Below are positions 34,235 to 57,574 of a stretch of DNA of 64,000 nucleotides, one piece after another. How positions within the stretch are numbered: the first letter of the stretch is position 1; each line of letters begins with the position of its first letter. This DNA comes from Fidelibacterota bacterium (GTDB lineage: Bacteria; Fidelibacterota; Marinisomatia; SCGC-AAA003-L08; TS1B11). The notes under the pieces are model-generated. The model made no database searches, had not been told where the DNA came from, and saw only the letters and a program-made list of their open reading frames with translations. The stretch lies in contig CP070638.1 of NCBI GenBank assembly GCA_020354025.1, forward strand, positions 2,301,193 through 2,365,192, read 5' to 3'. Made by a program: the position numbers and the translations under genes.

Positions 34235-35689
34235 TCAACTCATCCAGTTTACACCGGCTTCACGACTCCACTTGGTGGTGGTCTTCTTCAGCCGGGTCCA
34301 GAACTCGATAGAGCTTCTCCCAGTGATGTCGCCGATGCCGAACCGCGACTGATTCCAGCCGCCGAAGGAAAACGGCTCCCGTGGTACGGGTACGCCGATA
34401 TTGACACCGATCATACCAGCGCCAGCCCGCTGGCTAAAATAGCGTGCCATGCCACCGCTGCCAGTATAGATCGCCGCTGCATTACCGTAGGGCGAACGGT
34501 TTTCCAGAGCTAGGGCTTCGTCGATATCCTTTACACGCACAATAACCAGTACCGGCCCAAAGACCTCTTCTCGGGCGATTTTCATCTCCGGCCGCACTTC
34601 GTCAATAATTGTCGGGCTGAGGTAGTAGCCGTTCTCACGGCCAGTGACGATTTCCTTTCGACCGTCAAGCAATGGCTCTGCCCCTTCCTCGATGGCTTCG
34701 GTAATGCAGTCAACTATCCGCTCCTTGGCCTGCTGTGAGATAATCGCGCCCAAATCCTCTCCGGTGACGATACTGCCGGCTTCCTCGCAGATGCGTTTGA
34801 TGATATGGTCAACATCTCCCACAGCCACCAGGACAGCGGCTGCCATACAGCGCTGTCCGGCGCAGCCGGTGAAGGAGGCTACTACATTCTCGGCGGTCAA
34901 TACCTCGTCAGCGTCGGGAAGTACTACCAAGTGATTCTTAGCCCCTCCCATGCAGAGGGCTCGCTTCAGGTTCGACGTTGCCCGTTTATAAACAGCCCGG
35001 GCCACCCGCGTCGAGCCCACAAAAGAAAGGGCTTGTATGTCCGGATGGTCGCAGATTGCTTCCACCACCGTCCTGTCACCATTTACGACATTGAATACAC
35101 CTGGAGGCAGACCACTCTGTGCGAGCAGCTCCGCTATCCTTCCGGCACCTAGCGGCACCTGCTCCGATGGTTTCAGCACCATGGTATTCCCCAAGGCCAG
35201 CATGATAGGAATGGTCCAGTTTGGGACCATAATCGGAAAGTTGAAGGGTGTGATCGAAGCCACAACGCCCAAGGGATACCTTTCCTCCCGGCACTCAACC
35301 CCGGGACTCACCTCCAGAACCCAGCCTCCAATCAGCTGCGGGAGGGAGCAAGCGAATTCCGCCACCTCGGCGCTTTTCTCCACCTCGGCAATCGCTTCGT
35401 CCATGGTCTTGCCGTTCTCCTCCTGTACCAGGCAGGCAAGCTGCTCCTTGTTCTGCTCTAGAAGAGTCTTGTAGCAATAAAAGACTTGTACCCGTTCCTT
35501 GATCGTCTGTCCAGACCATCCGGGAAAGGCACGTCGGGCAACAGTTACCGCCTGATCCAGATCATGAGGCGTCGACAGTGGTACGTAGGAAATGACTTCC
35601 CCGTCGAGAGGACAGTAGACCTCCAGCGAACCGTTCCCACCGGCTTTGAACCGTCCATCGATATAGTTCTGCACTTCAGGATATCTCAT
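34235..35689 (-). CDS. mmsA: CoA-acylating methylmalonate-semialdehyde dehydrogenase family
   Basis: A 484-residue aldehyde dehydrogenase of the MmsA/IolA type. TPFNFPIMVPNWTIPIML near 147-164, the MGGAKNH block near 247-253 and the catalytic C281 in GCAGQRCMA are the features separating this CoA-dependent group from ordinary aldehyde dehydrogenases. It converts methylmalonate or malonate semialdehyde to propionyl- or acetyl-CoA, in valine or inositol breakdown. The start shares four bases (ATGA) with the stop of the esterase gene, so translation is coupled. No other iol or valine genes are visible, so the semialdehyde probably arises from a sugar or sugar-acid route here. Confidence 0.9.
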   Translation of the reverse strand: MRYPEVQNYIDGRFKAGGNGSLEVYCPLDGEVISYVPLSTPHDLDQAVTVARRAFPGWSGQTIKERVQVFYCYKTLLEQNKEQLACLVQEENGKTMDEAIAEVEKSAEVAEFACSLPQLIGGWVLEVSPGVECREERYPLGVVASITPFNFPIMVPNWTIPIMLALGNTMVLKPSEQVPLGAGRIAELLAQSGLPPGVFNVVNGDRTVVEAICDHPDIQALSFVGSTRVARAVYKRATSNLKRALCMGGAKNHLVVLPDADEVLTAENVVASFTGCAGQRCMAAAVLVAVGDVDHIIKRICEEAGSIVTGEDLGAIISQQAKERIVDCITEAIEEGAEPLLDGRKEIVTGRENGYYLSPTIIDEVRPEMKIAREEVFGPVLVIVRVKDIDEALALENRSPYGNAAAIYTGSGGMARYFSQRAGAGMIGVNIGVPVPREPFSFGGWNQSRFGIGDITGRSSIEFWTRLKKTTTKWSREAGVNWMS

Positions 35690-36453
35690 ATACTCAATCC
35701 AACCTTACTGGCAGACCGGATTCGTTCCTTCGAGATCTTAGCCAACGACAGCATCGCCTGCGCATAGCGCCTGCCCAGCTCCCGCGCCGCCTGGGCACTG
35801 AAATGCAGGCCATCTTCGCCGGGTCCCAGACCGCTAGCGTCTACATAGGCGGTGCTCGTAACAACCGTTGGCAGACTCTCCAGCGCTGCGTTCACCAGAT
35901 GCAGCCACTTCCTTTCGATCCGATCCGTCAGGAAATCGCCCAGTCCACCGACAACCACCACCAGACCAGGACAGCCCAGATCCTGGCGCAGGTTGCTGAT
36001 CATCCGGTACAGGCGGGTACCATAGGTACGGGCAGTCTCTTCGTGAATCGAATCGGTCTCTCCGTGATGCCACAGTATCCCGGCCAGCTCACCCGATTGG
36101 CAGGCTAGTTCAGCGCGTGCGATCGCCGTCTTATAGAGCTCGACGCCTTTCTGCCACTTTTCCAGCGGTGAGCCACCCACAGAGCAGGGGATGAGGCCAA
36201 TAATCGCTTCAGGATCCTGCTTGGCCATGACTCTGGCAAAAGCCATCGCGGGGCCGGTACCGCATCTCCCGGGTTTATCGAAATGCACAGGCTCTCTTGC
36301 GGGCCGCCAGCGCAGCTGAGCATCGAGCATGAAAATGCGGGGATGCGTCCTACGATCGATGGCCTGCACCTTGCCACGGCCAGACATATTGGACTGCCCC
36401 ATCAGCAGGTACAACGACAATCGCTTCGATCCGGTTGCACCCGTTATCGCCAC
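35686..36453 (-). CDS. Sialate O-acetylesterase-type (SASA) carbohydrate esterase
   Basis: A 255-residue SGNH-type esterase. The nucleophile serine S21 lies in LLMGQSNMSG, the oxyanion glycine block in VGGSPLEKW near 82-90, WHHGETDS near 118-125 provides the usual SASA motif, and a late D-x-x-H is seen in GEDGLHFS. Such enzymes remove acetyl groups from sialic acid, xylan or pectin. No signal peptide is present. The initiator is a GTG at 36453. It is translationally coupled to mmsA by a four-base overlap, an unusual pairing that suggests acetylated substrates feed the same pathway. Confidence 0.87.
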   Translation of the reverse strand: MAITGATGSKRLSLYLLMGQSNMSGRGKVQAIDRRTHPRIFMLDAQLRWRPAREPVHFDKPGRCGTGPAMAFARVMAKQDPEAIIGLIPCSVGGSPLEKWQKGVELYKTAIARAELACQSGELAGILWHHGETDSIHEETARTYGTRLYRMISNLRQDLGCPGLVVVVGGLGDFLTDRIERKWLHLVNAALESLPTVVTSTAYVDASGLGPGEDGLHFSAQAARELGRRYAQAMLSLAKISKERIRSASKVGLSI

Positions 36454-36543
36454 GGCCGTTTCATTCCCGATATGCGCTTTAAACCAACAGCCCTCTTTGT
36501 CATGACAGGAGTCAATCCATAACCCAGGTACGCACGTGGTGGA

Positions 36544-37227
36544 TCACAGCACCTCACAGGTCGGTGAAGTCACCTCTCCCAAACGCTTCAGTTTAGGCTG
36601 GGGCAGCCCCGCATACAGCTTTTCGAAGCGTTGGTTGATCTCGGCGTTCGCCATTTCAAACAAACTACGCCCCTGCGCGTTGCACTCCACCAGGAAGGGA
36701 CCCAGGTTCTCCACCTCAAGCACCCACATAGCCTGGGCCAGTCCCAGCTCCTCTTTCCAATGGACGTCCTTCACGCTACGGATACCACGCCCATAGAGGG
36801 CGCCCAGGCCGTAGCCCACCGTCGTCAGGTAGACCGCGCCGTATTTGCGAAACGTACTCTGATAGATTTCCTTCTGCATCCCTCCCTTGCCAATGATGAC
36901 GCGCACGTCATACCGCTCAAACAGCAGCGGGATATACTTATCGAACCGGAAGCTGGCTGTAGCCGACACTGCCGGGATGTGATATTCTCCGGGGCGTAGC
37001 TCGTTGACGGCGGGGGAACAGTGAAAGGTCACGTTGCTCAAGGACCGGATATCGACCGGGGGCTGCAGGTTCAAGTCGAATAGCTGGCTATATAATCCCT
37101 CACGGCCAGTGAACAGCACTCCGTCGAGAAAAACGACGTCGCCGATTTCCAGAGACCGTATATCATCTTCTGTGAGCGGTGCCCTCAGCCGCACCTCGCG
37201 CAGTTTTAAATCTTCCAGGTTATTCAT
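36544..37227 (-). CDS. Class I fumarase / L(+)-tartrate dehydratase, beta subunit
   Basis: A 227-residue beta subunit of the two-subunit, iron-sulfur class I hydro-lyases. It starts LREVRLRAPLTEDDIRSLEIGD. It contains HCSPAVNE near 69 and GKGGMQKEIY near 113-122, and ends VENLGPFLVECNAQG. The alpha subunit is encoded 12 bases upstream in transcription order. The pair hydrates fumarate or dehydrates tartrate or another 2-hydroxy diacid. Which one cannot be settled by sequence alone, but sugar-acid genes nearby make a non-TCA role possible. Confidence 0.9.
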   Translation of the reverse strand: MNNLEDLKLREVRLRAPLTEDDIRSLEIGDVVFLDGVLFTGREGLYSQLFDLNLQPPVDIRSLSNVTFHCSPAVNELRPGEYHIPAVSATASFRFDKYIPLLFERYDVRVIIGKGGMQKEIYQSTFRKYGAVYLTTVGYGLGALYGRGIRSVKDVHWKEELGLAQAMWVLEVENLGPFLVECNAQGRSLFEMANAEINQRFEKLYAGLPQPKLKRLGEVTSPTCEVL

Positions 37228-37239
37228 GATCCTAAGTTC

Positions 37240-38181
37240 TCACGCTGGCTGGAAGCTGATTGACTCCCGCCGATAGAAGGGCGTGAACCAGCAGGGGTTC
37301 CCCCGGTATTCGATGGAATTGTCCGCCCCAATACGCGCTGTCGCCCGCCGGTGGGCAAAACAGAAATGTTGGATAGCAATCGGCATCCCGCCCGTATGAG
37401 TGTAAGCGATCTCGATGTGAACGTCCAATATAGCTCCATCCCCGGGAAGTCCCATAACTCCGAAACCGGTGGAATTACCCAACTCCAGCAGCTCCTCTTC
37501 CAAGGTCGCGATGTCCGGATCGGGATTGCGGTCTCCCACTATGCGCAGACAGGCGGCTTCCTTAGCCAGGCGCACACATACATCCTTCGTCCCGCCGATT
37601 CCTACTCCCACCACCAGAGGCTGGCAGGACATTCCCCGTCGGAAAAATTCACTGATACTGTCCAGTAAAAAGCGCTTTAATCCCGCCACGCCGTCGGCCG
37701 GGAACAGCATGCGGTAATCACCGCCGAACAATCCCCCCTTGTGGACCACTGTCAGCTCTAACCAGTTCACACCCGGTTCAAAAGAATAGTCTACGGTCGG
37801 GGCGTGCACACCCACATTGTTGTTCTGATCCTTGCGTGACAGTGGATGGACACGGTTAGGCCGGATAGGAATAGCTGCGGTGGCTTCGGCGGTTGCCCGG
37901 CGCACAGCCTCTTCCAGCCCTACCATGCCGCCCTCAACGACCGCCTCGTTGCCTACCTTGGCATAGAAGCGCGGCAGCCCGGTGTCGGCGCACATCGGAC
38001 GCTGCTCCGCCACCGCAACCTGGTAGTTCTCCATTATCTGTTCCAATACATACCTGGAGAGAGAATGGGTCTCACGCTGACAGAGCTGCCCTACCGCCAG
38101 TCTAGCATCCTCCGGGATGCAAATGGCGGCCCGGCGGTTTAATTCCACAGCGGTCTGGTACAGGGCACTCCCAGCTATCAC
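37240..38181 (-). CDS. Class I fumarase / L(+)-tartrate dehydratase, alpha subunit
   Basis: A 313-residue alpha subunit carrying the catalytic 4Fe-4S cluster. C64 lies in RPMCADTGLPRF, the usual first cluster ligand. A second candidate is in SCQPLVVGVGIGGT near 190 and a third in EEAACLRI-like sequence about 20 residues on. The family loop NNVGVHAPTVDY is intact. The GTG start at 38181 follows GGAG after eight bases. The stop is 12 bases from the beta-subunit start. The cluster is oxygen-sensitive in known members, in keeping with an anaerobic host. Confidence 0.9.
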   Translation of the reverse strand: MIAGSALYQTAVELNRRAAICIPEDARLAVGQLCQRETHSLSRYVLEQIMENYQVAVAEQRPMCADTGLPRFYAKVGNEAVVEGGMVGLEEAVRRATAEATAAIPIRPNRVHPLSRKDQNNNVGVHAPTVDYSFEPGVNWLELTVVHKGGLFGGDYRMLFPADGVAGLKRFLLDSISEFFRRGMSCQPLVVGVGIGGTKDVCVRLAKEAACLRIVGDRNPDPDIATLEEELLELGNSTGFGVMGLPGDGAILDVHIEIAYTHTGGMPIAIQHFCFAHRRATARIGADNSIEYRGNPCWFTPFYRRESISFQPA

Positions 38182-38242
38182 TTCGGATTCTCCAATATTT
38201 CCCCGTGGAGTACCACTGTTCCTTCGGAACAGACCCTTTGAA

Positions 38243-40543
38243 TCACTTCTGCAGTATCGATCTTTTCGAGATCACAGTGTTGTGACCACCCTTCAAGGCA
38301 TAGAAGTAAAGACCACTGGATACCGGTCTTCCGGCCCTGTCTCTCCCATCCCAGACGATAGAATAATCCCCTGCCAGCATATTCCCGGTCACCAACGTCC
38401 TGACGAGCTGCCCGGATACATCATAAACCAGAAGCTGAACCAGACCCGGATAAGCGACCGAATAATTAATAATAGTGGAGGGATTAAAGGGATTAGGATA
38501 GTTCTGATATAAACTGAATTTTTCCGGGGCCGGCGAGTTTCCTGCGGGAGGGTCGCTGATGCCCACGGGGCTGTCCCAGCCGATGAGCTCCAAGGTCACC
38601 GATCTCTGTTCCTCACCCACGGATACTTCGATCGTAAGGGTCGAATCGTCCGGCGATACCAGATTGAACTCCGCTGGTACATCGGCCGTCTTCCGGGGAT
38701 GCATTACGGCCAGAATCAGAGTCTTCTCTACGTTCTCAGCCGGATAGACTTTCAACAACTGGGTACTGTTGTCATCGGCGGTAGCGGCGGGCAGCAGAAA
38801 CTGGACATCCATGACCACATCCCCCTGAGTGATCAGGAACTTACCCGCCTCAACCTTGCTCACGCTGCCATCGGTGTGCAGCAGCCATTCGAATTTGGAA
38901 GGGCGCTCCGCTTCCAGCTCGTCCAGTATTATGATTACATCCGGCTTCAGGAAGACAAAATGCCGCTGGAACCTGGTCAGGCCAGCTTCGGGTCGATAAA
39001 TATTCTCGGCATCACCGATGAGATAATCTAGTGTAGAGTCGGACTCAGCCCGGATAATCCGACTGGTGGCCCCGGCATCGAAAACGGCATCCCTGTCAAA
39101 CCAGTTAGAGCCGACTTCCGGAGTCCACTCACCCAGTTGCCCGTAACCGTTTACTATAACTGTATTGTGATAATGGGTGTGTTTGGGAGTGGACCGACCG
39201 TCATCCCGCACCAGCCATTTTCCATAGGCATAGATATTGAAGTGGTTCACATCCGGGTGTCCGTGCCCGTTGACTAAATGATGGAAAGTGGACATACTGT
39301 CGTACAACGCTTGAATGGCATGTCCATGAAATGGCCCGCACTTGAAACCGATCATGACTGCATCATCCCGGTTCCATGAGCTTCGTGAGGTAATCCAGTC
39401 AGTGTCCTCAAAGTGCTTGAAGGTCGGTAGACTGTCCGGTGGAACAGTCGGGATTGTCTCATCATACCACAGCAGATTAGCCCAGCCCATGCGATCGGTG
39501 ACTCCGATATCCCGGCCAAACATATCCATAGCCAGCCACTGAAAGTGCGGATTTCGGTATTCGCTGGCCAGGTTTAACAACTGATAGGTCGGACCGTGGC
39601 TGACGTAGGTGTAGTTACGGGTATCCCCATAGCGCATAACGCAGTTGTCGGCGGTAAAATCGGGCAGTGTGCAGTAGAGGATGAAATAGCCCATGTTTTC
39701 AAGCCATTCGCTCTGTTTATAAAAATTGATGCCCAGGACTTCCTTGGCCATCTTGTTGAAATGCATCTGGAACTCGGTCATCAGACCGAAATACTGATGT
39801 CCCTCGGTTGAGCTTCCATCATCCCCGGAGATTTTATAGGCCGTATCAAATATATTGTATGCCTGCCTGATCCAGTCTTCAGCGCTATCAACGTCACCGT
39901 ATAGGGCAAAACCGGCGGCCCCCAGGCCGGTGTATTCTACCTGACAGTGGTTCGAGAGGTACCGTTCCTTATGTGTCGGACCGCCCGTCATGGCGTTGGC
40001 GAAATACGCCAGTCCATCCCGGATGGTCGTCTGTTGGCTGGGAGTAAGGTCATGATACAACCAGTCATACCCCAGTGAGATCCCCATCAGACAATGGGCC
40101 GCACCTAAGCTGTGGTTGCCATCCCACGTATTGTATCCACACACCTTGGTCATCCAGCTCGCTGCTTTGTCCAGGTACTTGGAATCTTCGGTCAGCAAAT
40201 ATGCCATTGCCAGCCAGGGAACTGCGTCGCCGTCCCACCGCGTGTCATCCTCGCTCGTGGGATTCTCCCTGGGAGATAGGCTGAGATAGCTGTCTGCCTT
40301 TCCCTGGATGCCACTCCAGATGAACTGGTGGGTGGATGAGATTTTTACCTTCAAGATTTCAATCCGGGCCGAATCCAGCAGCATACGAGGATGGACCGTC
40401 GCCAGAGAATCCAGCCGTGCTGGCCGGGACCACCCACGATTGATCACATAATCCCAAGATAGAGTATCTTGTTGAGCACAACTTGATGTCGCTATCCCCG
40501 ACAGTAACAGGAGCGCGATCATTCTCAGACCGATCCGTTTCAT
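38243..40543 (-). CDS. Secreted heparinase II/III-like polysaccharide lyase with C-terminal sorting tail
   Basis: A 766-residue exported protein. I place the start at the ATG at 40543, seven bases after AGAAGG; the reading frame runs 37 codons further up but without support. The signal peptide MKRIGLRMIALLLLSGIATSSC ends in a possible lipobox. An (alpha/alpha) toroid (about 40-400) is followed by a beta-sandwich of the heparinase II/III type, with HHLVNGHGHPDVNHFNIYAYG near 435-455 as the conserved His-rich block. The last 90 residues are a FlgD/Por-type tail: NYPNPFNPSTIINYSV ... GLYFYALKGG. Lyases of this fold cut uronic-acid polysaccharides. A LacI-type operator and a promoter lie upstream at 40716-40764. 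Confidence 0.87.
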   Translation of the reverse strand: MKRIGLRMIALLLLSGIATSSCAQQDTLSWDYVINRGWSRPARLDSLATVHPRMLLDSARIEILKVKISSTHQFIWSGIQGKADSYLSLSPRENPTSEDDTRWDGDAVPWLAMAYLLTEDSKYLDKAASWMTKVCGYNTWDGNHSLGAAHCLMGISLGYDWLYHDLTPSQQTTIRDGLAYFANAMTGGPTHKERYLSNHCQVEYTGLGAAGFALYGDVDSAEDWIRQAYNIFDTAYKISGDDGSSTEGHQYFGLMTEFQMHFNKMAKEVLGINFYKQSEWLENMGYFILYCTLPDFTADNCVMRYGDTRNYTYVSHGPTYQLLNLASEYRNPHFQWLAMDMFGRDIGVTDRMGWANLLWYDETIPTVPPDSLPTFKHFEDTDWITSRSSWNRDDAVMIGFKCGPFHGHAIQALYDSMSTFHHLVNGHGHPDVNHFNIYAYGKWLVRDDGRSTPKHTHYHNTVIVNGYGQLGEWTPEVGSNWFDRDAVFDAGATSRIIRAESDSTLDYLIGDAENIYRPEAGLTRFQRHFVFLKPDVIIILDELEAERPSKFEWLLHTDGSVSKVEAGKFLITQGDVVMDVQFLLPAATADDNSTQLLKVYPAENVEKTLILAVMHPRKTADVPAEFNLVSPDDSTLTIEVSVGEEQRSVTLELIGWDSPVGISDPPAGNSPAPEKFSLYQNYPNPFNPSTIINYSVAYPGLVQLLVYDVSGQLVRTLVTGNMLAGDYSIVWDGRDRAGRPVSSGLYFYALKGGHNTVISKRSILQK

Positions 40544-40715
40544 GTTGTAGCCTTCTGTTGGTTTTTTCGCGCGGACAGAATGGATAGCCGACCTTAAAAA
40601 CGGCTTGGTAAAAGTGGCCATTAGATCGGAGGGAACCATTACCTGTACATCCACCTGCTCACCATGTATTCATAAGACCCAAGCAGGACCCGATTTCGTC
40701 GGTACATCCTGATTT

Positions 40716-40744
40716 TTCGTATCATCTGAGCCTCGAACCGTCAA
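40716..40744 (-). promoter_or_regulatory. Sigma-70-type promoter for the polysaccharide lyase gene
   Basis: On the minus strand a -35 box TTGACG (40744-40739) is followed by a 17-base spacer and a -10 TACGAA (40721-40716) preceded by TG, as in extended -10 promoters. The predicted transcript starts about 165 bases before the lyase ATG. The spacing is ideal but the -10 itself is weak. The LacI-type palindrome ends two bases upstream of the -35 box. Confidence 0.5.
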
Positions 40745-40746
40745 TT

Positions 40747-40764
40747 TCCGTAAACGTTTACGGA
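40747..40764. promoter_or_regulatory. LacI-family operator, perfect 18-bp palindrome
   Basis: TCCGTAAACGTTTACGGA is fully self-complementary with the central CG typical of LacI/PurR/CcpA-family operators. It sits in the gap between the core-MetE-like gene and the secreted lyase, right next to the -35 box. No LacI-type regulator is encoded in this window, so the regulator acts from elsewhere. Induction of the lyase by a sugar is the natural reading (inference). Confidence 0.75.
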
Positions 40765-40787
40765 GACTAAGTTACCTCGAAATCCGT

Positions 40788-41837
40788 TCAATTGAAACCT
40801 AGATATTTATCCCTCCCACTGACGAGAGCATCGATTTTGCGATCGGCTACACTTCGTGCAAGCATCCAGAAGCCGCAGTCGGGATGCACCCACTTCACCC
40901 GGCCGCTCCCCAGAACGCTTTCAGCTTTATCAATACGAGCAGCTACCTCGTCCGGGGTCTCAACATGATTCACCTTGATGTCTATTACTCCAATGCCGAT
41001 TCCAATGTTGGGATCTACTCCCCTGAGCGCTTCCAAATCCTCATCGGGCCGGTGCGCCATTTCCAGCACCAAGTGGTTACAATGCAGGCTATTCAAGAAG
41101 TCCACCAGCTTCCCCCACCTCCCGGACTGGATCGTCTGCCCGCCATAATTGCCGAAACACAGATGCACCGCCCGTTCACACCGGATTTTATCCAGGATCA
41201 GGTTGATCGCCTTGGCTGCCAGCATCGAATCACCCGGCTGGCCAACAATAAATGCCTCATCGACCTGGATACAGGCACAGGGTAGATCGATCACTTGCTT
41301 GGCCAGGACTTCCGCAATAGCCAGGGTCAGGGCTTCTAAATCATCATAGTGCCGGTCAAGGAGCGTTCTGGCCAGCATATAAGGGCTGGTAAGAGTGAAC
41401 TTGAACCGCTCACCAGCTACCGATCCAGCCCGCTCGCAGTCAGCCAACAGGTTCAAGCTCCCTTCACCGACCGGACTCTCGACCACACCCGCCGGCTGGC
41501 GGCGATAAGTCAGCGCCTCTTGCTTCCGAAATTCCAGCCAGTCACTTCGGCCAACGGCGGTCCTGATCCCCGACATTGAGCAGATGAAATGGTCGATCAT
41601 CCCGTTCGTATCCGGATGATTAATATCAAATCGGTAGAGCTCGCCGTCGGTTGGCAGATCGATCCCCGCCTGCCGTTGGGAGTCGATCACTACCCTGGTG
41701 GCATCAACCAGTGCCTGTTCGCTCGGTTGAGCCCGAAGCCAGTCCGGAACAGGATAGGACCCGACGGTGGTCGTCAGGACGGGTAGGTCGCGATTCTCAG
41801 TGGCTTTTCCACTACGGCTGTAAGTGCTTTCAGGCAT
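40788..41837 (-). CDS. Core-MetE-like zinc methyltransferase (catalytic domain only)
   Basis: A 349-residue protein equal to the C-terminal catalytic domain of cobalamin-independent methionine synthase, starting TTTVGSYPVPDWLR near 23-36. The zinc-site pattern is present: H-x-C in VHLCFGNYGG near 225-234, the Glu in VLEMAHRP and the late Cys in HPDCGFW. Full MetE has an extra N-terminal domain needed for folate binding, missing here. Stand-alone core-MetE proteins have been shown in archaea and some bacteria to take methyl groups from methylcobalamin proteins. A link to the corrinoid system at 13192-16220 is therefore possible. It follows the LamG-like gene by 24 bases. Confidence 0.83.
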   Translation of the reverse strand: MPESTYSRSGKATENRDLPVLTTTVGSYPVPDWLRAQPSEQALVDATRVVIDSQRQAGIDLPTDGELYRFDINHPDTNGMIDHFICSMSGIRTAVGRSDWLEFRKQEALTYRRQPAGVVESPVGEGSLNLLADCERAGSVAGERFKFTLTSPYMLARTLLDRHYDDLEALTLAIAEVLAKQVIDLPCACIQVDEAFIVGQPGDSMLAAKAINLILDKIRCERAVHLCFGNYGGQTIQSGRWGKLVDFLNSLHCNHLVLEMAHRPDEDLEALRGVDPNIGIGIGVIDIKVNHVETPDEVAARIDKAESVLGSGRVKWVHPDCGFWMLARSVADRKIDALVSGRDKYLGFN

Positions 41838-41861
41838 AATTCTAGAGGCTCTCCTTATTGG

Positions 41862-42464
41862 CTACAAACGACTGGTCAGAAATTCTTTCGGTGCTAAGAT
41901 CACGGGGGCAACCCTGATGGTGCTGATCGCCCCTTTGAACCAGCTAACCCGGTTCTGGCGCATACCGATTGAAGTCTGTCCTCCGGTGAGAGGAATGAAC
42001 TCGAAGGCACATGACAGCTCCGGGCTACCGTCGACGAAGTTGGTCAGCTGTGACCCATCGCAGGTAAGAGCCGCATGGTACCATTGACCGAGAGGATGCT
42101 CAAAACCCTTGTTCATCATAGTCTTGTCCCTACCACCGACTGACAGGTAGGTGTCGAGATACCAGGAGTTGTTATCAACCACACGGGTTTCAAATAACAT
42201 CCTATCGTCGTGGCATTCACCCATATGCAGGAACCGCTGCTCATGATGTCCAGCAGGGTAGGGACAGAACAGCACCTCAACCGTAAACTGTTCCAGCCCG
42301 GCCAGCGGATTGATCCCCAGCAATATACCATCATGCCGGCCATCGAACTCCAGGGCCATGCCAGATGGACTTTCTACCTCCCCGGGACTACCAAGAGTCT
42401 CGCATTCTCCACTATAAATACCTTCGGTACTCCCTCCCTGCCAGTAAAAGATGGTTTCCTGCAA
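41862..42464 (-). CDS. LamG/concanavalin-like lectin domain protein
   Basis: A 200-residue protein made of one LamG/laminin-G-like jelly-roll. Family features are ALEFDGRHDGILLG near 37-50, FTVEVLFCPYP, the central GQWYHAALTCDGSQLTNFVDG near 128-148 and the final GAISTIRVAP. Such domains bind carbohydrate or serve as accessory modules. Here it stands alone without a signal peptide. The start is a TTG at 42464 with GGAGG six bases upstream. It lies 29 bases after the probable selenoprotein gene in the same transcript. Confidence 0.8.
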   Translation of the reverse strand: MQETIFYWQGGSTEGIYSGECETLGSPGEVESPSGMALEFDGRHDGILLGINPLAGLEQFTVEVLFCPYPAGHHEQRFLHMGECHDDRMLFETRVVDNNSWYLDTYLSVGGRDKTMMNKGFEHPLGQWYHAALTCDGSQLTNFVDGSPELSCAFEFIPLTGGQTSIGMRQNRVSWFKGAISTIRVAPVILAPKEFLTSRL

Positions 42465-42493
42465 GTTCCGCCTCCCTCCAGCTATTCTCTATC

Positions 42494-43108
42494 CTATACG
42501 GCCGCTCCGGCCACTGCAAGCAATACCTCCGGATCAATCCGTTGCCTGTAATCGGGATTGACGTAGCTGAAGGTAATCCGGCTGCCGGCGTCGGTCACGA
42601 AGACTGCTGGTACCGGCAGGATGTGATGCATCTGCCCAGATGCAACTTCGATATCCAGTCCCTGCCGCTTGTAGCTGGACACAAGCTGCTCATCCAGCCT
42701 GAATGCTATACCGAAGGCGCTGGCCGCTTCTACTTGACTGTCTGATAGCAGCATATACTCAATTCCCAACTTCTCGGCGGTATGCCGCAGCCTTTCAGGC
42801 TGATCCGGACTGATGGCAATTAAACGATAGCCTAAACGACGAAAGTCTCCCTGAATGTTCTGCAGCTGTCCCAGCTGCTTGAGGCAGGGTGGTCACCACC
42901 CACCTCGATAGAATATCAGCACTACTGGGCTCCGACAAGCTATAGCCTGAAGGTCAAACGTTTCCCCGTCAATAGCGATCAATGACACCGACGGTACCGC
43001 GCTCCCAATCAACAGCGGGCAAATTTCTTCCGCGTTCTCAGGCACAGCCCCGGTCGCGAGGGCTCTCACCGATTGTCTCTCCTGATCCAGGTTAAGTCCT
43101 TTTGCCAA
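42494..43108 (-). CDS. Probable selenoprotein: AhpC/TSA (peroxiredoxin-like) with in-frame UGA (UxxC)
   Basis: A 204-residue peroxiredoxin/thioredoxin-fold protein read through an in-frame TGA at 42895-42893. The text before it is LIFYRGGW and after it PPCLKQLGQLQ, giving GGW-U-PPC where cysteine relatives have GGWCPxC. The UGA is thus exactly at the first redox cysteine. The frame stays open and homologous on both sides: YRLIAISPDQPERLRHTAEK follows, then LLSD.. and VPAVFVTDAG. A hairpin that meets bacterial SECIS rules lies 21-24 bases after the UGA. The likely role is thiol-dependent peroxide or disulfide reduction. The start is a TTG at 43108 without a clear ribosome site; it follows the Gfo/Idh stop by 18 bases. 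A pseudogene is the alternative. Confidence 0.82.
42862..42878 (-). promoter_or_regulatory. Bacterial SECIS-like hairpin
   Basis: In the mRNA, GCAGCUG GGA CAGCUGC forms a seven-pair GC-rich stem with a GGA apical loop. The loop begins 21 bases after the UGA at 42893-42895. Known bacterial SECIS elements have an upper stem of at least four pairs, a G within the first two loop bases, and 16 to 37 bases between UGA and the loop; all three hold. The sequence also codes for KQLGQLQ, so the structure is compatible with protein function. Confidence 0.75.
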
Positions 43109-43126
43109 AGTAACTTGGACCAGCGA

Positions 43127-44191
43127 TCAATCAGGACCGGTGTTCTCATACAGCCGCATAACCGTCTCCAGCGAACGATAGGCATCCTCACCCGATATGG
43201 GCGGCTCACGGTTTTCCAGCACTGCCTCTACGAAACCGCGCATAAATCGCGTGCGTGGGCTGTCGGCCGGCTGCTCTTGGGGACGAGCTTCGAGCTCCAG
43301 GGCAGGAGTAACTGCAGTCCACCCGCCCGCCTGGCTGTCGGAAGTATTCTCGGTAGAATACAGCCACAACGGACCGGGATCGCCGATTACGATCTGCCCA
43401 TGCTCGCCGTAGAATCGTACTCCTCTCAGCTCGTCAGGATAGCGGCCGCCCACCATCTTGGAACCTGCCAGAATGCTACCCAGAGCCCCATTGTTAAAAC
43501 GTACCGTCCCAGCGAAGTAGTCCTCTACCTCAACATCAGTGAGAAATGTATCGTACTGCGAATAATATTTGATGGGGACCAGTCCGGAGATATAGTCGAT
43601 GTAGTCGAAGAAATGGATGCAGTTCATCATTAATACGCCTCCGCCACTCCGCTGTTTCGACTTGCGCCAGCCGGATTGCCCACCCCGACCGGTAAATCCG
43701 GTCATCCAATAACTCTCCGGCTTCTCGGATATCCAATGGATCTCGACGGCAATTATCTTCCCGATAGCCCCGCCCTGGACCAGCTCCCGGGCTTTGATGA
43801 TATTATAGTTATACCGATAGACATAGGGCACTGACAGCTTGACGTCATTCTCATGACAAGCCTGAACCAAGCGGTGGGCATCTTCAAGAGTATTCGCCAG
43901 TGGTTTCTCCATAACGATATGCTTGCCGGCTTCTGCTGCCTGAATACCCATGGAGGCGTGGAGATCATGTGGTGTGGAGAAACAGACCGCTTCCACCTCC
44001 TTGGCAGTAAGAATTTCATTGAAATCCAGCGTCACCCTGCAATCGGCCATTTCTGCCAGTGAAAGAGCGAGTTCCTCGTTGTGATCCATCACCATGACCA
44101 CCCTGGTGTTGTCCAGGTTCTGGATCGCTCTCAGATTTGCCACAGATATCTCTCCGCAGCCGACCATTCCGAAATTCAGCATATTCTTCAT
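43127..44191 (-). CDS. Gfo/Idh/MocA-family NAD(P)-dependent oxidoreductase, copy 1
   Basis: A 354-residue sugar or inositol dehydrogenase-type protein. The Rossmann start is FGMVGCGEISVANLRAI near 6-22. The dinucleotide-domain signature EKPLANTLEDA near 97-107 carries the conserved EKP. The C-terminal alpha/beta domain includes VHWISEKPESYW and GGGVLMMNCIHFFDYIDY near 186-203 with the usual His. The family oxidises or reduces sugars, often to keto sugars. It is not a close copy of the Gfo/Idh protein at 53412-54371. It precedes the selenoprotein gene by 18 bases. Confidence 0.9.
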   Translation of the reverse strand: MKNMLNFGMVGCGEISVANLRAIQNLDNTRVVMVMDHNEELALSLAEMADCRVTLDFNEILTAKEVEAVCFSTPHDLHASMGIQAAEAGKHIVMEKPLANTLEDAHRLVQACHENDVKLSVPYVYRYNYNIIKARELVQGGAIGKIIAVEIHWISEKPESYWMTGFTGRGGQSGWRKSKQRSGGGVLMMNCIHFFDYIDYISGLVPIKYYSQYDTFLTDVEVEDYFAGTVRFNNGALGSILAGSKMVGGRYPDELRGVRFYGEHGQIVIGDPGPLWLYSTENTSDSQAGGWTAVTPALELEARPQEQPADSPRTRFMRGFVEAVLENREPPISGEDAYRSLETVMRLYENTGPD

Positions 44192-44236
44192 CAGGATGTA
44201 GTTCCTCTAATCATGAATTAGCTGCTACCCAACCGG

Positions 44237-44542
44237 TCAGGAGGTCCAGTCTAGTGCAATGGTGACCAGAGCTTCTTTGCGCGACCACAGGCGCTGGTAA
44301 GCCTGCGGTGCCGCTTCAGCCGGAACCTTATCGCTGATCAGGGACTGGATCCTTATCCGGTTCTTGGCCAATAACGCCAGCGCTACACGCAGGTCGGCCT
44401 GTATGGTTTTCACCGGGAACATCTCATCTACCTTCGGTCGGCAGGCGTTATGAGCACCGATGATGGTTATCCCTTTACGGTGGACGGAGCGATAGAAATG
44501 CACTTCGCCCTCCCGGGGAAAAAATATTTGACGGGCTTCCAT
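44237..44542 (-). pseudogene. C-terminal remnant of a zinc-type medium-chain dehydrogenase
   Basis: A 101-codon frame that resembles only the end of polyol/sugar alcohol dehydrogenases: REGEVHFYRSVHRKGITIIGAHN near 10-32, then a helix-rich tail ending AYQRLWSRKEALVTIALDW. The zinc-binding and nucleotide-binding parts are missing. An in-frame TAA lies nine bases before the ATG, and only 49 AT-rich bases separate it from the pectate-lyase-like gene, so no N-terminal half is hidden nearby. It is probably a decayed gene. Translation as a free 101-residue protein cannot be ruled out. Confidence 0.65.
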
Positions 44543-44591
44543 ATTATATTAATTATCTGCTGTTTATGACAATTATGATATTGTATTAATT

Positions 44592-46331
44592 CTATTTCAG
44601 CACTATCATTTTTTTCATTTCAACAAAATTACCCGCTTGCATTTTGTAGAAATAGACACCACTGGGAAGCAAACTGGCATCAAGAATAATTGAATAAATA
44701 CCAGGGGGATGGAATTCATCGACCAGACTTTTAACTTCCTGACCCTGTAAATCGTAGATCGTTATTGTCACAAATTCGGAATTCGTTATCGAATACAAGA
44801 TTTTTGTTTCTGGATTGAACGGATTGGGATAGTTTTGAGATAAAAGGTAGCCAGTCGGCACCTCCGGCGATAGACGAATACCCGCCTGCACCCCACCACC
44901 CAGCGGATCCACATCTGCTGGCCCGCTAACATCATTTGACAGTACCTCAGCTACTGTTGAGTGATCCCAGAAATTATACTCGGCTTTCACAGTATCACCT
45001 GATAGATTAGTCAGGTCATAGGGTATATTTCCGTTAAGGGTATTACCCCCTACGCTGGGAGCAGCTACAGTACCAGGGCCGGAGAGTAAATTGTGTCGAT
45101 GAACATCGAGAAGACCGCCGCCAAGGTCCATCATAACTTTATTATCTAAAAGATAAATCCCGGCTTTATTGCCCGTTATAATGTTGTTCTCGATACGAGC
45201 CAGGATACCATCCGTATATTGAGTTCGAATACCGTATTGCGAGCAGTTTTCAATGGTATTGTTGCGAACGATGATGCTTACCCAATCGCTCAAGCGCAGG
45301 CCGCTTTTAGTGTCGTGTGAGTAGTTATTCTCGAAGATGACGAAATTTGTATTCCCCCCGAATCTCGGCCCATTATTCCTGGGGCCTGCGAATTCACAAT
45401 TGCGTACCACCAGTATGCCCGTACCGGTCATCCTGATAGGTTGATTGCCATCGTAGGAATAGCAGCCGGTGATGACGGCCTTGCCGGCAGGATTGTCAGT
45501 ACCCCAGCTGTTGATCATTATCGTTTTATCATCAGAAGCCCCATAGCTGCAATCTCTGATAATACAGTCGAGACAGTAGTTTCCACCACCGTTTAACGTC
45601 ATGGCATCTTCACAGATAATGTTAACCATCACGTTCTCGATGAGATTACGGTGACCGCCGCGGGTGTGCAGTCCATCAGGGAAGCGATCCCAGGTAAAGT
45701 TCCTGACTATGTTGTCATCCCCATGAATCCGCAGGGAAGGCCCACCTTCCTCCTGTGAGCACGCAGCACTTCCATTATAATAAAACGTGATATTTCTGTC
45801 TTCGCCGTCGATGATCAGATTATTGCCATAAAAATCCCTTCTGGGAGAAACGGACGAATCCCAATTCAGGTTGAGGGTATCATCGGTGAAACCGAAAAGA
45901 ATCCGGCCGCCCCCGTTAGTCTCGATGGAATCCAGAGCTGAATCAAAGGCTGCCTGGGTGGGCTCGGCGAGAACATAATCCGGATAATTATATTCAGTAT
46001 CAAAATCCCTTACGGTAATGTAATCTACTTTCCTCAAGGTATCTGAGCCGTCGGGACCGCTCACTATCAGGGTGATAGTGTATACGCCCGGCTGTAGATA
46101 CTTATGGTTCGGTGCTAACTCGGTGCTGGTTGAATCATCACCGAATTCCCATAGAAAGCTGGTGATCTCCCCTGTTGACAAGCTGACAAACTCAGGTCTG
46201 TAGTACAGATCCCAACCAGAGGTTGGGACTGCAAAAAAATCAGCAACCGGAGCATCTGAAGCAGCCGTGATTGTCGGCAAGACACAGGCAAACACTATCA
46301 CCCCAGATAAAAATTTGACTTTTTTAGACAT
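44592..46331 (-). CDS. Secreted PKD / right-handed beta-helix (pectate-lyase-like) protein with sorting tail
   Basis: A 579-residue exported protein starting at the ATG at 46331 (GAGGGTG upstream). The frame continues up to 46451, but the signal peptide MSKKVKFLSGVIVFACVLPTITAA fixes the start. A PKD domain covers about 30-110 (SFLWEFGDDST, PNHKYLQPGVYTITL). A beta-helix covers about 125-440, with coils such as NLIIDGEDRNITF, HRNLIENVMVN, GKAVITGCYSYDGN and GIRTQYTDG. A FlgD/Por-type tail ends it (NYPNPFNPETKILYSI). Polygalacturonan lyases of families PL1 and PL9 have this fold; no family was fixed by eye. The stretch is AT-richer than its neighbours. Confidence 0.83.
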   Translation of the reverse strand: MSKKVKFLSGVIVFACVLPTITAASDAPVADFFAVPTSGWDLYYRPEFVSLSTGEITSFLWEFGDDSTSTELAPNHKYLQPGVYTITLIVSGPDGSDTLRKVDYITVRDFDTEYNYPDYVLAEPTQAAFDSALDSIETNGGGRILFGFTDDTLNLNWDSSVSPRRDFYGNNLIIDGEDRNITFYYNGSAACSQEEGGPSLRIHGDDNIVRNFTWDRFPDGLHTRGGHRNLIENVMVNIICEDAMTLNGGGNYCLDCIIRDCSYGASDDKTIMINSWGTDNPAGKAVITGCYSYDGNQPIRMTGTGILVVRNCEFAGPRNNGPRFGGNTNFVIFENNYSHDTKSGLRLSDWVSIIVRNNTIENCSQYGIRTQYTDGILARIENNIITGNKAGIYLLDNKVMMDLGGGLLDVHRHNLLSGPGTVAAPSVGGNTLNGNIPYDLTNLSGDTVKAEYNFWDHSTVAEVLSNDVSGPADVDPLGGGVQAGIRLSPEVPTGYLLSQNYPNPFNPETKILYSITNSEFVTITIYDLQGQEVKSLVDEFHPPGIYSIILDASLLPSGVYFYKMQAGNFVEMKKMIVLK

Positions 46332-46402
46332 TGCTACACCCTCGTTTTTGCGTTTCCTATCGCGATTTAGGCTCACGGTATGGTAGGTAGACCTAATTCG
46401 CA

Positions 46403-48238
46403 TTATACAATATCGATCCATACCGGACTGGTCCAAGCCATACCAGGCCACACAAGCGGCTCTTGGGTGATGCGTGCATAGTACAGGCAGTCACCGCGCA
46501 CCTCATCCTCCAGAGAGAATGATGCATCCATGGATTCAGGCTGCGGGAATTCGGACATGATGGTTACGAAGGCGCTGTCTTCACCGAATCGAAAGCGCAG
46601 AACCTCAGCCCGCAACAGGATATCCGTACACCAGACTTGCAGCTCGATGGATACATGGTCCCCTTTTTTTCTCTGCCCGACACCACCCATCGGAACCCCG
46701 GCTACTGAAAAATCGACCAGGATTCGTTCACCGGTGGTAGCATAGCAGCGTCTGTTACGCAGCGCGTCAAATATGGCCTCCCGCGTCAGTTCCTCAGCCC
46801 AGACTGCAGCAATCCCTCCGTGTCTTCGGCCTGCCTGTGAGCTGTGCTCGTCAGAGGAGCCGATAACACCGAGCCGGCGCTCCTTCATCCAGTAGCTTTG
46901 GGCATAGTAAGGCCCTGAGATGGAGACATTCGAACGCCGCTCCGGCCGGCGCATCCGGTTATGTTCATACGATAGTATATGCTGTGGATTCCAAAGCTCG
47001 CTCTGACCGTGGTGGGAGTATATCTCCATAACCGGCCGGAGCCCCTGATCATCGCAGGCATCCAGATCTATTGCTTCACTCAGGCTGCCATCCAGGGATA
47101 TCCTCCTCCAGCCCAGACCGGTATGGTGCGGTATCAGAATGGCCCGAGAAGGATCCAGCATAGCTTGCAGATGACCTTCTTGTTGCGCATCGGCAAAGAT
47201 GGCATTCCCACGCGTAGCGGCGCTGGCGGTAAAACTCTCCTCATCGCGGTGATAGAGATTATGGTGCCCGGTGAACTGTCCCGGATTGCGCTCGTCACCC
47301 AGCAGGGTTACGAACCGGCCAGGTTCGTAGGCTTCCCGGGCCCACTTTATTGTCTGTTGATAGCCCCCCTGCCCAAGCGACTGCCAGTGATCCGTAACTC
47401 CCGCAAAATCCAGCCCGCTGACCTCCCGGCCATAGGCGTAGGGCTCAGTTCCGTAGCCATCATGGGACAGCTTGGTATGGAGATGGATGTCACCCCAATA
47501 GGGACCCCGGCATCCCCTACCTACCCGCACGACGTTCGACAGCACATCGCGAAACCGGAACCGATATGCTCCCTCCTTCTCCAATCTTACCGGAACCTTG
47601 ATACTGCCGATGAAGTCCAGATTTTCCACAATCGTTCTTCCGTCGGAGCATATCAGGCTTTCATTCTCGTATCTGGTCGTTGAGCGGTTATCAAAGCGAT
47701 CCAATGAGACAATCCGCACAACGAACTCTTTACCGGGTTCGACACCGGAAGGCACAATAATCCGCAAGTGTTCCGCCGGACCGGCAGTGGTGGTAAGCAG
47801 CGGCTCGGCTCCCGGCGCCTGCCCCTTCACCCGCACCCAGACCGTGTCCGTCTCAGCCAGATCAGGTGCAAAAGTGTTGGCATACACAATCCGGATCAGC
47901 GTCCCGGACGGGATGCTCCCCCGGCCCAGGGTGGCGATGATGTGCCGCCCGTGCCGCACAATGCCCTCAGGAAAGGGCAGATGGCGTTTTTTTATCTCCA
48001 GATCGAATTCGGCGCCATCTGATTCCGCAGCGACTGAGATATAATGCTCTCCCTGTGGGTCTACATGCTGCAATTCCCGGGTATGACTGGGGCCCGAAAT
48101 CACCATCCACGAATTGGCGTACTGTACCTCGATCCTATCGCCCACCGTCAGCGGTTCGGAGATCTGAATCAACAGCTCCACACTGCAGCGCTCACCAACA
48201 GGGAAGGACTTTGCCTCAATCTCAGCTGTCACCTGCAT
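46403..48238 (-). CDS. DUF3604-domain (PHP-type metal-dependent) protein
   Basis: A 611-residue protein with a beta-rich N-terminal part (about 1-210) and a PHP-like metallohydrolase part starting GPYWGDIHLHTKLSHDG near 225-241. Further ligand motifs are FAGVTDHWQS, LIPHHTGLGW and GSSDEHSSQAGRRHGG. These are the DUF3604 hallmarks. PHP domains hydrolyse phosphoesters; what DUF3604 acts on is not established. No signal peptide is present. The start overlaps the end of URO-D copy 3 by 17 bases, so the two are co-transcribed. The gap to the pectate-lyase-like gene is 71 bases. Confidence 0.85.
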   Translation of the reverse strand: MQVTAEIEAKSFPVGERCSVELLIQISEPLTVGDRIEVQYANSWMVISGPSHTRELQHVDPQGEHYISVAAESDGAEFDLEIKKRHLPFPEGIVRHGRHIIATLGRGSIPSGTLIRIVYANTFAPDLAETDTVWVRVKGQAPGAEPLLTTTAGPAEHLRIIVPSGVEPGKEFVVRIVSLDRFDNRSTTRYENESLICSDGRTIVENLDFIGSIKVPVRLEKEGAYRFRFRDVLSNVVRVGRGCRGPYWGDIHLHTKLSHDGYGTEPYAYGREVSGLDFAGVTDHWQSLGQGGYQQTIKWAREAYEPGRFVTLLGDERNPGQFTGHHNLYHRDEESFTASAATRGNAIFADAQQEGHLQAMLDPSRAILIPHHTGLGWRRISLDGSLSEAIDLDACDDQGLRPVMEIYSHHGQSELWNPQHILSYEHNRMRRPERRSNVSISGPYYAQSYWMKERRLGVIGSSDEHSSQAGRRHGGIAAVWAEELTREAIFDALRNRRCYATTGERILVDFSVAGVPMGGVGQRKKGDHVSIELQVWCTDILLRAEVLRFRFGEDSAFVTIMSEFPQPESMDASFSLEDEVRGDCLYYARITQEPLVWPGMAWTSPVWIDIV

Positions 48239-49244
48239 TCACCTGCTCCATTTCTCCCTCAGCGTAATTCAATCGCACCCCGTGCCGGATAAATTCCTCG
48301 CAGGCGTATCCCTGCCAACGAGGATCCAGACCGATGGATGCGTTATCCTCGTAAAATCCGGCGATGAAACCACCTCGTCCTTTCCATAGCCGGTCCAGCA
48401 TCTCTCGCGCTCGAGACCGGATCCGGGCTTCATCACGCGTCTGCAGCGTGTCCCGAATATCTACCGGGCACCAGAAAGTGATCCTGCCATGCTTCTGGTA
48501 GGCTTCAAGCTGATCGATCCCATGCAGATCCGGCTGGTCGAGCTGCAAGACATCGATCCCGACTGCCATTAGGTCCGGCACGATCGCTCCCATCTGGCCG
48601 CAGGAGTGCATGAACACCTTCAAGCCCCGCTTATGAGCTAAATGACACAAGTCGCGAAAACGGGGCTGGAACTCCTCCCGCCATAGTTGCGGACTGATGA
48701 AAAGTTGATCCTGTGTTCCCCAATCCTCCCAGAACATAACACTGTCCACGCCAGCGTCAGCATAGCGGACTATCATCTTCTCCAGTAGCGTATCAATTCG
48801 ATCATGCAGTCGCTGTACCTTTTCCAATTCCCCCAGCAGATCAACCAGGTAATTCTCCAGTTTTCTTAGTTTACGGGCTATACCAAAGGCAAATCCGGGC
48901 AGCTCTCCAATGAGCCATCTATCAGGATACTGCGATCTGACCTCTTCGACCCGGGTGTAGCTCCCCGACTCCGAGTAATCCGGAAACTCGTATTTATCAG
49001 CCCTGCTTAGCTCGTCCAGTACACCCCTGACCACCTGCCCTTTTGAAGTCGCATCCACCCGGCCCCAGGTGTTGCCCCACTCATCGATGCGTTCCCATTG
49101 ACCGTTACCAACTATCTTCCAGTCCGTTGCCCGGGAGCTGGCAAGGTAGCGACTGGATACTATGTCGGAATCCGCGAAGGACCGAGCCACCCTCTCAGGG
49201 CATCTAAAATCCAGGGTTGACTGTACTATTTCCCGTGAGGTCAA
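48222..49244 (-). CDS. URO-D-fold methyltransferase, copy 3 (H-x-C zinc motif)
   Basis: A 340-residue URO-D superfamily protein. I place the start at a TTG at 49244. It overlaps the TGA stop of the EamA gene (TTGA) and has GGAGG seven bases upstream; the 32 codons above this in the open frame belong to the EamA coding region. It opens LTSREIVQSTLDFRCPERV. Unlike the other two copies, it carries an exact H-x-C in FMHSCGQMG near 218-226, the zinc motif of MtaA/MtbA/CmuA-type methylcobamide methyltransferases. A further Cys in ITFWCPVDI may complete the site. Its lies far from the corrinoid gene, but it could serve the same pathway. Confidence 0.82.
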   Translation of the reverse strand: MTSREIVQSTLDFRCPERVARSFADSDIVSSRYLASSRATDWKIVGNGQWERIDEWGNTWGRVDATSKGQVVRGVLDELSRADKYEFPDYSESGSYTRVEEVRSQYPDRWLIGELPGFAFGIARKLRKLENYLVDLLGELEKVQRLHDRIDTLLEKMIVRYADAGVDSVMFWEDWGTQDQLFISPQLWREEFQPRFRDLCHLAHKRGLKVFMHSCGQMGAIVPDLMAVGIDVLQLDQPDLHGIDQLEAYQKHGRITFWCPVDIRDTLQTRDEARIRSRAREMLDRLWKGRGGFIAGFYEDNASIGLDPRWQGYACEEFIRHGVRLNYAEGEMEQVNAGDS

Positions 49245-50206
49245 GATTCCGCCTCCACCGACGGCTGGACTTCCCCCTTTTGCACAACCACCGGCAACTC
49301 CGCTTTTTTCCCGGCGGTTAAATGGATAATCCCCAGCCAAACTGCCCCCGCCATGATCACTACGCCACCAAGCAGCTCTCTTTCAACGGGAAGCTGACCT
49401 AAAAAGATGTACGCCAAAGGCAGAACCAACAGTGGTTGGGCGATTACCACCAGGCTAGAGCGGGACAGGTCCCAGTGGCGATAGGAACGGTACATCAGGT
49501 GGAAACTGGCACACGGCCCCAGGAAGGCACCCAGCAGGAGCACCAACCAGTGTGAGAGCGATGCACTAAAATCCATCTGGCCGGATATCAGATTCCAGAT
49601 CGCGATGACCAGGAATGCGATCACGACCCGGTAGAATACCATAATGCTGGGCTCGTTCCGGCTGACCGCGATCTTCGCGATAACCTGCTGTACGGCAGCC
49701 ATGAAAGCGGCTGAAATGGCCAAAATCAGCCCGATCCCCACGATCTCCCACCTTCCGATCGCACTCACCACGCACCCCACGATCATAACTGCGATCGGGG
49801 GCAATTCCTTCAGAAGCAACCTCTCGCCCAGAATCAGGAAGCTCAGTATGATGATCAATACCGGGCGGAAGCGGCCAAGGAATGCGGTGAACGAGGGGTC
49901 CAATTTAGATAATGCGGTCCAGCCGAGCAGCATCCCCACGCCTGTCGCCAGACCTATAAACACCAGTGGTCTCGCAGAATGGGCTGGCAAGGCCAGCTGT
50001 TTCAAACTGCCGGTGAAAACAATAATCGCTAATGAATAAACACTCGCGGCCGCGGTCCACAAAAGCGCGAAGGTTGCTGGATTGAATCCCGCCAGCGCAT
50101 ACTTGGCGGTTACGAAATTGGTGGAGAGGAGCGAGGCCCCGGCCAGGGCAAAGAGAAATCCCCTGACCGGATCATACCCGTTCACACCACCCTGCGATTC
50201 CGTCAC
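49241..50206 (-). CDS. EamA/DMT-family transporter
   Basis: A 321-residue protein with ten predicted hydrophobic segments in two repeats, starting GFLFALAGASLLSTNFVTAKYAL. The second half contains YRSYRHWDLSRSSLVVIAQPLL near 225-246, a usual EamA boundary. I use the GTG at 50206. It comes one base after the stop of the nitrilase gene, with GGAG five bases upstream. Members move metabolites, amino acids or sugars. The substrate is unknown. The last bases overlap URO-D copy 3 by four bases, so nitrilase, transporter, URO-D and DUF3604 genes form a tightly coupled unit. Confidence 0.88.
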   Translation of the reverse strand: MTESQGGVNGYDPVRGFLFALAGASLLSTNFVTAKYALAGFNPATFALLWTAAASVYSLAIIVFTGSLKQLALPAHSARPLVFIGLATGVGMLLGWTALSKLDPSFTAFLGRFRPVLIIILSFLILGERLLLKELPPIAVMIVGCVVSAIGRWEIVGIGLILAISAAFMAAVQQVIAKIAVSRNEPSIMVFYRVVIAFLVIAIWNLISGQMDFSASLSHWLVLLLGAFLGPCASFHLMYRSYRHWDLSRSSLVVIAQPLLVLPLAYIFLGQLPVERELLGGVVIMAGAVWLGIIHLTAGKKAELPVVVQKGEVQPSVEAES

Positions 50207-50207
50207 G

Positions 50208-57556: not shown

Positions 57557-57574
57557 GGTTATTCGCTCTGGGGA

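Follow-up and report, generated by a model that had tools for sequence, protein, structure and literature searches.

A probable UxxC peroxiredoxin-like selenoprotein with a covarying SECIS hairpin, encoded beside sugar-cassette genes in a Fidelibacterota genome

Results

An in-frame UGA in a peroxiredoxin-like gene

We analysed a stretch of 64,000 nucleotides from the genome of a Fidelibacterota bacterium (the window; positions are counted from its first letter). On the minus strand, between the genes for a Gfo/Idh/MocA oxidoreductase (43127-44191, the upstream neighbour) and a LamG/concanavalin-like protein (41862-42464, the downstream neighbour), lies a frame running from 43108 to 42494 whose two halves share one phase and are split by exactly one TGA (42895-42893), just as a first-pass annotation of this DNA had described. 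With the UGA taken as selenocysteine (Sec), the frame gives a continuous ...FYRGGWUPPCLKQLGQL..., in which the UGA stands for the first cysteine of the motif YRGGW-C-PxC and homology extends to either side of the UGA. The portion 3' of the UGA is intact over 132 codons and conserved to its end. The first-pass annotation had placed the start at TTG 43108, upstream of which six further codons are open and no more. GTG 43069, which AGGAG precedes by nine bases, is the more likely start. Read from there, the gene (42494-43069, minus strand) would encode a UxxC Prx-like (PF00578) selenoprotein of 191 residues. Its putative Sec codon (42893-42895) specifies residue 59, or residue 72 when counted from TTG 43108, and the codon at 42884-42886 specifies Cys62, the invariant second residue of UxxC, which lies at the position of the peroxidatic cysteine of peroxiredoxins. 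None of the other PF00578 matches in the genome has an internal stop.

Homology had been proposed to run through the stop, and the profile search agrees: PF00578 (AhpC/TSA) crosses the UGA codon, covering residues 34-178 of 204 in the TTG 43108 numbering (E 2.7e-22; 79.5 bits against a gathering score of 26), with UxxC present as UPPC. No NCBIfam model reached its cut-off, the best being NF040769, nearly full length at 54 of 120 bits. PF13911 (AhpC-TSA_2/PRX_like2), which touched 13 of 49 aligned relatives, had no match to the window protein at E 0.01. An AlphaFold2 model with cysteine put at residue 59 had a pLDDT of 95.6 and a pTM of 0.91, and the solved structures nearest to it were peroxiredoxins of the Bcp/PrxQ and AhpE kinds; ResA oxidoreductases were among the matches too. 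Aligned to the peroxiredoxin 5epf, Sec59 matches the motif threonine of that protein and Cys62 its peroxidatic cysteine; the PxxxTxxC peroxidase motif is absent, with arginine and Sec at its proline and threonine positions. The active site thus has a thioredoxin motif set in a peroxiredoxin framework.

The product is most likely, on this sequence evidence, a peroxiredoxin-fold thiol oxidoreductase or peroxidase. A narrower version, to which we give slightly less than even odds, is that it is a thiol:disulfide oxidoreductase acting on proteins or small thiols and not a peroxidase. The thioredoxin-like UxxC, the missing PxxxTxxC motif and the ResA-type thiol oxidoreductases among the fold and profile matches speak for this version, whereas the best fold matches are Bcp/AhpE-type peroxiredoxins and the best family is PF00578; the sequence is unable to separate the two activities. 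As to location, we saw no signal peptide by eye in the 191-residue protein. A hydrophobic, signal-like segment opens most of the Sec and Cys relatives that we inspected. It is missing from the window protein and from L051, a relative from the same genus, and these two are therefore probably cytosolic.

Relatives with Sec or cysteine at the same codon

An initial genome scan identified 28 relatives, two of which, both from Acidobacteria, carry TGA at the same codon. Further searches took in 60 relatives of this genome, its phylum (245 genomes) and the Acidobacteria phylum (396 genomes). In total, 40 further relatives with UGA at this codon were found in 37 genomes of two phyla, together with about 37 distinct Cys relatives, although these counts exceed the number of independent events because many of the sampled relatives are close kin. 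In the family alignment, the UGA column holds cysteine in all 27 Cys rows, which bears out the earlier claim that the UGA replaces the first cysteine of GGWCPxC and leaves the second in place; invariant throughout are RG-W-C/U-P-C, one aspartate and one arginine.

A tree built with the UGA/Cys column omitted requires about 10 switches from Sec to Cys or back, at least three of which are forced by well-supported branches. One exchange lies within the window's own family, where a Sec member (L081) stands beside two Cys members (L052 and L053) with full support. The row nearest to the window protein by path is L051, which also has UGA. Two longer UGA relatives of about 300 residues, L082 (in G004) and L083 (in G009), have hydrophobic helices ahead of an RGDWUPFC domain and look, from their sequences, like a membrane-anchored subfamily. 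Separately, two Acidobacteria genomes carry second UGA members, L107 (G245, RGYWUPFC) and L108 (G246, RGHWUPYC), both of which lack the QLGQL hairpin described below at the corresponding place.

One stop in a conserved codon resembles a recent nonsense mutation, and TGC or TGT becomes TGA by one base; the UGA might thus be a true stop in a decaying gene, or a sequencing error. The first-pass annotation had pointed to relatives with the same UGA as a check for a pseudogene. Frames of the UGA relatives are otherwise open, which argues that the window gene is not a pseudogene, and the recurrence of UGA at this codon in 40 relatives from two phyla refutes decay or error in practice. The intact and conserved downstream half, the RNA-level selection on the hairpin and the full Sec machinery in the genome (both below) also stand against it, and we regard it as very improbable.

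A SECIS-like hairpin under RNA-level constraint

A candidate bacterial SECIS hairpin lies at 42862-42878 on the minus strand, where its codons encode QLGQL. It consists of GCAGCUG (42878-42872), the loop GGA (42871-42869) and CAGCUGC (42868-42862). The published bSECIS model has a loop of 3-9 nt, an upper stem of 4-16 bp, a G within the first two loop positions, a distance of 16-37 nt from the UGA and a minimum free energy of -7.5 kcal/mol or lower (PMC13188914). We applied these constraints by hand, and the element fell within all of them, with a stem of 7 bp, a loop (GGA) starting 21 nt downstream of the UGA and -9.8 kcal/mol when folded alone. The energy of this single sequence was not beyond chance (z = -1.09; 27 of 200 shuffles were equally good), and the significance of the hairpin comes from comparison between relatives and not from the energy of one fold. 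Rfam at its gathering threshold gave no match in the window, which is unsurprising since bSECIS elements vary widely.

Among 23 distinct UGA sequences, 94.4% of the pair cells were standard pairs compared with 84.3% in shuffles, and the covariation score was 0.342, whereas shuffles averaged 0.166 and none of 500 reached the observed value. Four of the seven pairs changed on both sides, and sliding the partner strand by one to three bases lowered the score to 0.018-0.163. The seven-pair, GGA-loop stem that the first-pass annotation had called SECIS-like thus covaries. The codons for Q-L-G-Q-L switch jointly, as in CAG TTG GGT CAA CTG, CAA CTG GGT CAG TTG and CAG CTG GGC CAG CTG. A perfect six-pair stem was present in 19 of 22 UGA genes, compared with 2.8% expected under uniform synonymous choice; column-wise codon shuffles equalled this in 0 of 20000 trials on all rows, and p was 0.03 when the nine distinct codings were used.

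The comparison with the Cys genes points the same way. Of the 30 UGA genes, 28 have GGN as the loop codon, compared with 1 of 37 Cys genes, and the hairpin core had a median of -8.9 kcal/mol in UGA genes and -3.2 kcal/mol in Cys genes (p = 1.5e-9). At a strict -7.5 kcal/mol on the 17-base hairpin alone, 6 of 30 UGA genes and 0 of 37 Cys genes passed, the published limit being meant for the whole element. Since the GGN loop and the stable fold occur in UGA genes and far less in Cys genes, a constraint on the RNA shows itself only in genes with UGA at this codon. These comparisons indicate that the hairpin is under RNA-level selection in the UGA genes, and the need for it seems to be what holds the peptide QLGQL constant in Sec members. 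The sole Cys gene with a GGN loop, L003 (L003:1063-1653), is the Cys relative most like the window protein (55-56% identity). Its peptide still reads QLGQLQ, its loop codon is GGA and its hairpin is almost complete; it is perhaps a recent Sec-to-Cys change that has kept a remnant of the hairpin.

The genome encodes the selenocysteine machinery

We searched the genome (3.40 Mb in one contig, 95% complete) for sel genes and found selA, selB, selC and selD, in line with the earlier proposal of a selenoprotein. The match to selA scored 529.8 bits (cut-off 267.9) and is directly followed by selB (328.3 bits, cut-off 242.25). The tRNA-Sec gene (selC) scored 75.4 bits against a gathering score of 47, and ARAGORN calls the same gene tRNA-SeC with anticodon tca (UCA). 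The selD gene (401.9 bits; L087, G000:C1:1667777-1668703) is itself interrupted in frame by a single TGA, within the motif HGAGUACK, which brings the selenoprotein genes of this genome to at least two. No match over the cut-off was found in it for formate dehydrogenase alpha, the enzyme that usually employs Sec, and Sec use here seems accordingly not to be based on that enzyme.

An open frame under recoded UGA leaves the inserted residue unspecified, and the codon might be read as something else, such as tryptophan through a reassigned code or near-cognate suppression. The relatives, however, have cysteine at this position and not tryptophan; tRNA-Sec (UCA), SelA, SelB and SelD are present; a hairpin of bSECIS form lies at the required distance; and UGA terminates other genes of the window normally. 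We give this reading almost no credence. The other long same-frame pair parted by TGA in the window (56546-58612) was considered as a recoding candidate and rejected: it comprises two complete Opp-type ABC transporter ATPase genes, and the TGA between them is therefore an ordinary stop, which provides a control for the codon at 42895-42893.

From the frame, the UGA/Cys exchange, the covarying hairpin and the Sec machinery, all read directly in the DNA, we infer that selenocysteine is inserted. We put the probability that the gene at 42494-43069 is a selenoprotein gene whose UGA is read as Sec at about 0.96.

The surrounding sugar cassette

Nearby in the window are further genes whose products are a heparinase-like lyase, a fumarase-like dehydratase and a protein with a MetE-like methyltransferase domain. 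One further genome of the genus, G001, has the arrangement Gfo/Idh - UGA gene - LamG as well (at L080); its Gfo/Idh protein is 63%, its LamG protein 58% and its selenoprotein 48% identical to those of the window, and a fumarase-like gene (78%) follows. The first-pass annotation had called this operon setting unusual for such a protein. That remark is meaningful only in part: G001 shares the order, but Gfo/Idh - LamG - heparinase-like cassettes that lack the selenoprotein gene also occur in the genus, in G002 and at a second locus of G001. Within the flanking DNA examined, such neighbours are absent from every other sampled family locus.

The selenoprotein might be a dedicated part of this sugar-degradation cassette, alongside the Gfo/Idh protein, the LamG protein, the heparinase-like lyase and the fumarase-like dehydratase. 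The genes share a strand with short gaps and their order around the selenoprotein gene is kept in G001, but the cassettes without the gene and the absence of these neighbours from the DNA examined at the other sampled family loci count against such a role, which we consider doubtful. Because the cassette also exists without it, the selenoprotein gene is better described as an optional passenger, and the evidence tying it to the cassette is weak. The recurring cassette itself, Gfo/Idh - LamG - heparinase II/III-like lyase, lies within 35686-50242 in the window and is found at L080 and L151 in G001 and at L152 in G002; in the window, MetE-like, URO-D-like and fumarate/tartrate dehydratase-like genes lie near it. 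It looks like a cassette for the breakdown of an acidic polysaccharide.

Discussion

We propose that SelB carrying Sec-tRNA(UCA) would bind the hairpin at 42862-42878 and that the ribosome would then decode the UGA at 42895-42893 as selenocysteine. The product would be soluble and cytosolic, have the peroxiredoxin/thioredoxin fold and carry U-P-P-C as its active site. By analogy with thioredoxin-type UxxC enzymes, Sec59 would be the nucleophile, an attacking selenolate that reduces a peroxide or an oxidised thiol or disulfide; Cys62 would resolve the intermediate through a Sec-Cys bond (a selenenylsulfide), which thioredoxin-like reductants would reopen. We infer both this Sec-Cys chemistry and the class of substrate, and hold the chemistry with less certainty than the assignment as a selenoprotein.

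The gene fits a kind of selenoprotein that is already known. The Sargasso Sea study of 2005 described a Prx-like selenoprotein family with UXXC in place of TXXU (PMC1088965), and the GOS study reported 225 Prx-like 1 selenoproteins with PF00578 and UxxC (PMC2398784); environmental precedent for the type had been noted in the first-pass annotation, and both surveys agree with it. A 2026 table places the Prx-like thiol:disulfide oxidoreductase (PF00578, UxxC/UxxU) among the families predicted with high confidence (PMC13188914). The window protein shares with these Prx-like UxxC selenoproteins the PF00578 domain, UxxC in place of TxxU, distant peroxiredoxin homology and the existence of Cys homologues, an assignment made by PF00578 and motif; it differs in being without an export signal and in lying in a sugar cassette. 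With Sec peroxiredoxin (TxxU) it has in common the peroxiredoxin fold and a Sec in the active site, but its Sec is at the first motif position, cysteine occupies the peroxidatic position and TxxU is absent. SelL proper is known for UxxU, whereas the window protein has one Sec; the SelL-related NF040769 is its best NCBIfam match, of nearly full length and the same fold class, but at 54 versus 120 bits. With cd02970/PRX_like2 it shares a CxxC-type motif and a second cysteine aligned with the peroxidatic one. The selenoprotein form listed for PRX_like2 is UxxS (PMC13188914), whereas the window protein has UxxC and no match to PF13911.

A literature search for the exact motif (GGWUP and similar) returned no paper. 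It is conceivable, if rather unlikely, that YRGGWUPxC marks a distinct subfamily that current tables and NCBIfam do not list separately, whose members are mainly exported and are widespread both among Acidobacteriota and in the phylum of the window; the copy in the window's lineage would then have shed its export signal and been taken into a cytosolic step in the degradation of polysaccharides.

Standard gene callers treat UGA as a stop and would break this gene, and its relatives in dozens of genomes, into two pieces or cut them short. Read through, they form a natural experiment in which one type of protein carries Sec or Cys, sometimes inside one bacterial family. The set lets one test what a CxxC peroxiredoxin-like enzyme gains from selenium, and what the SelB of these lineages recognises.
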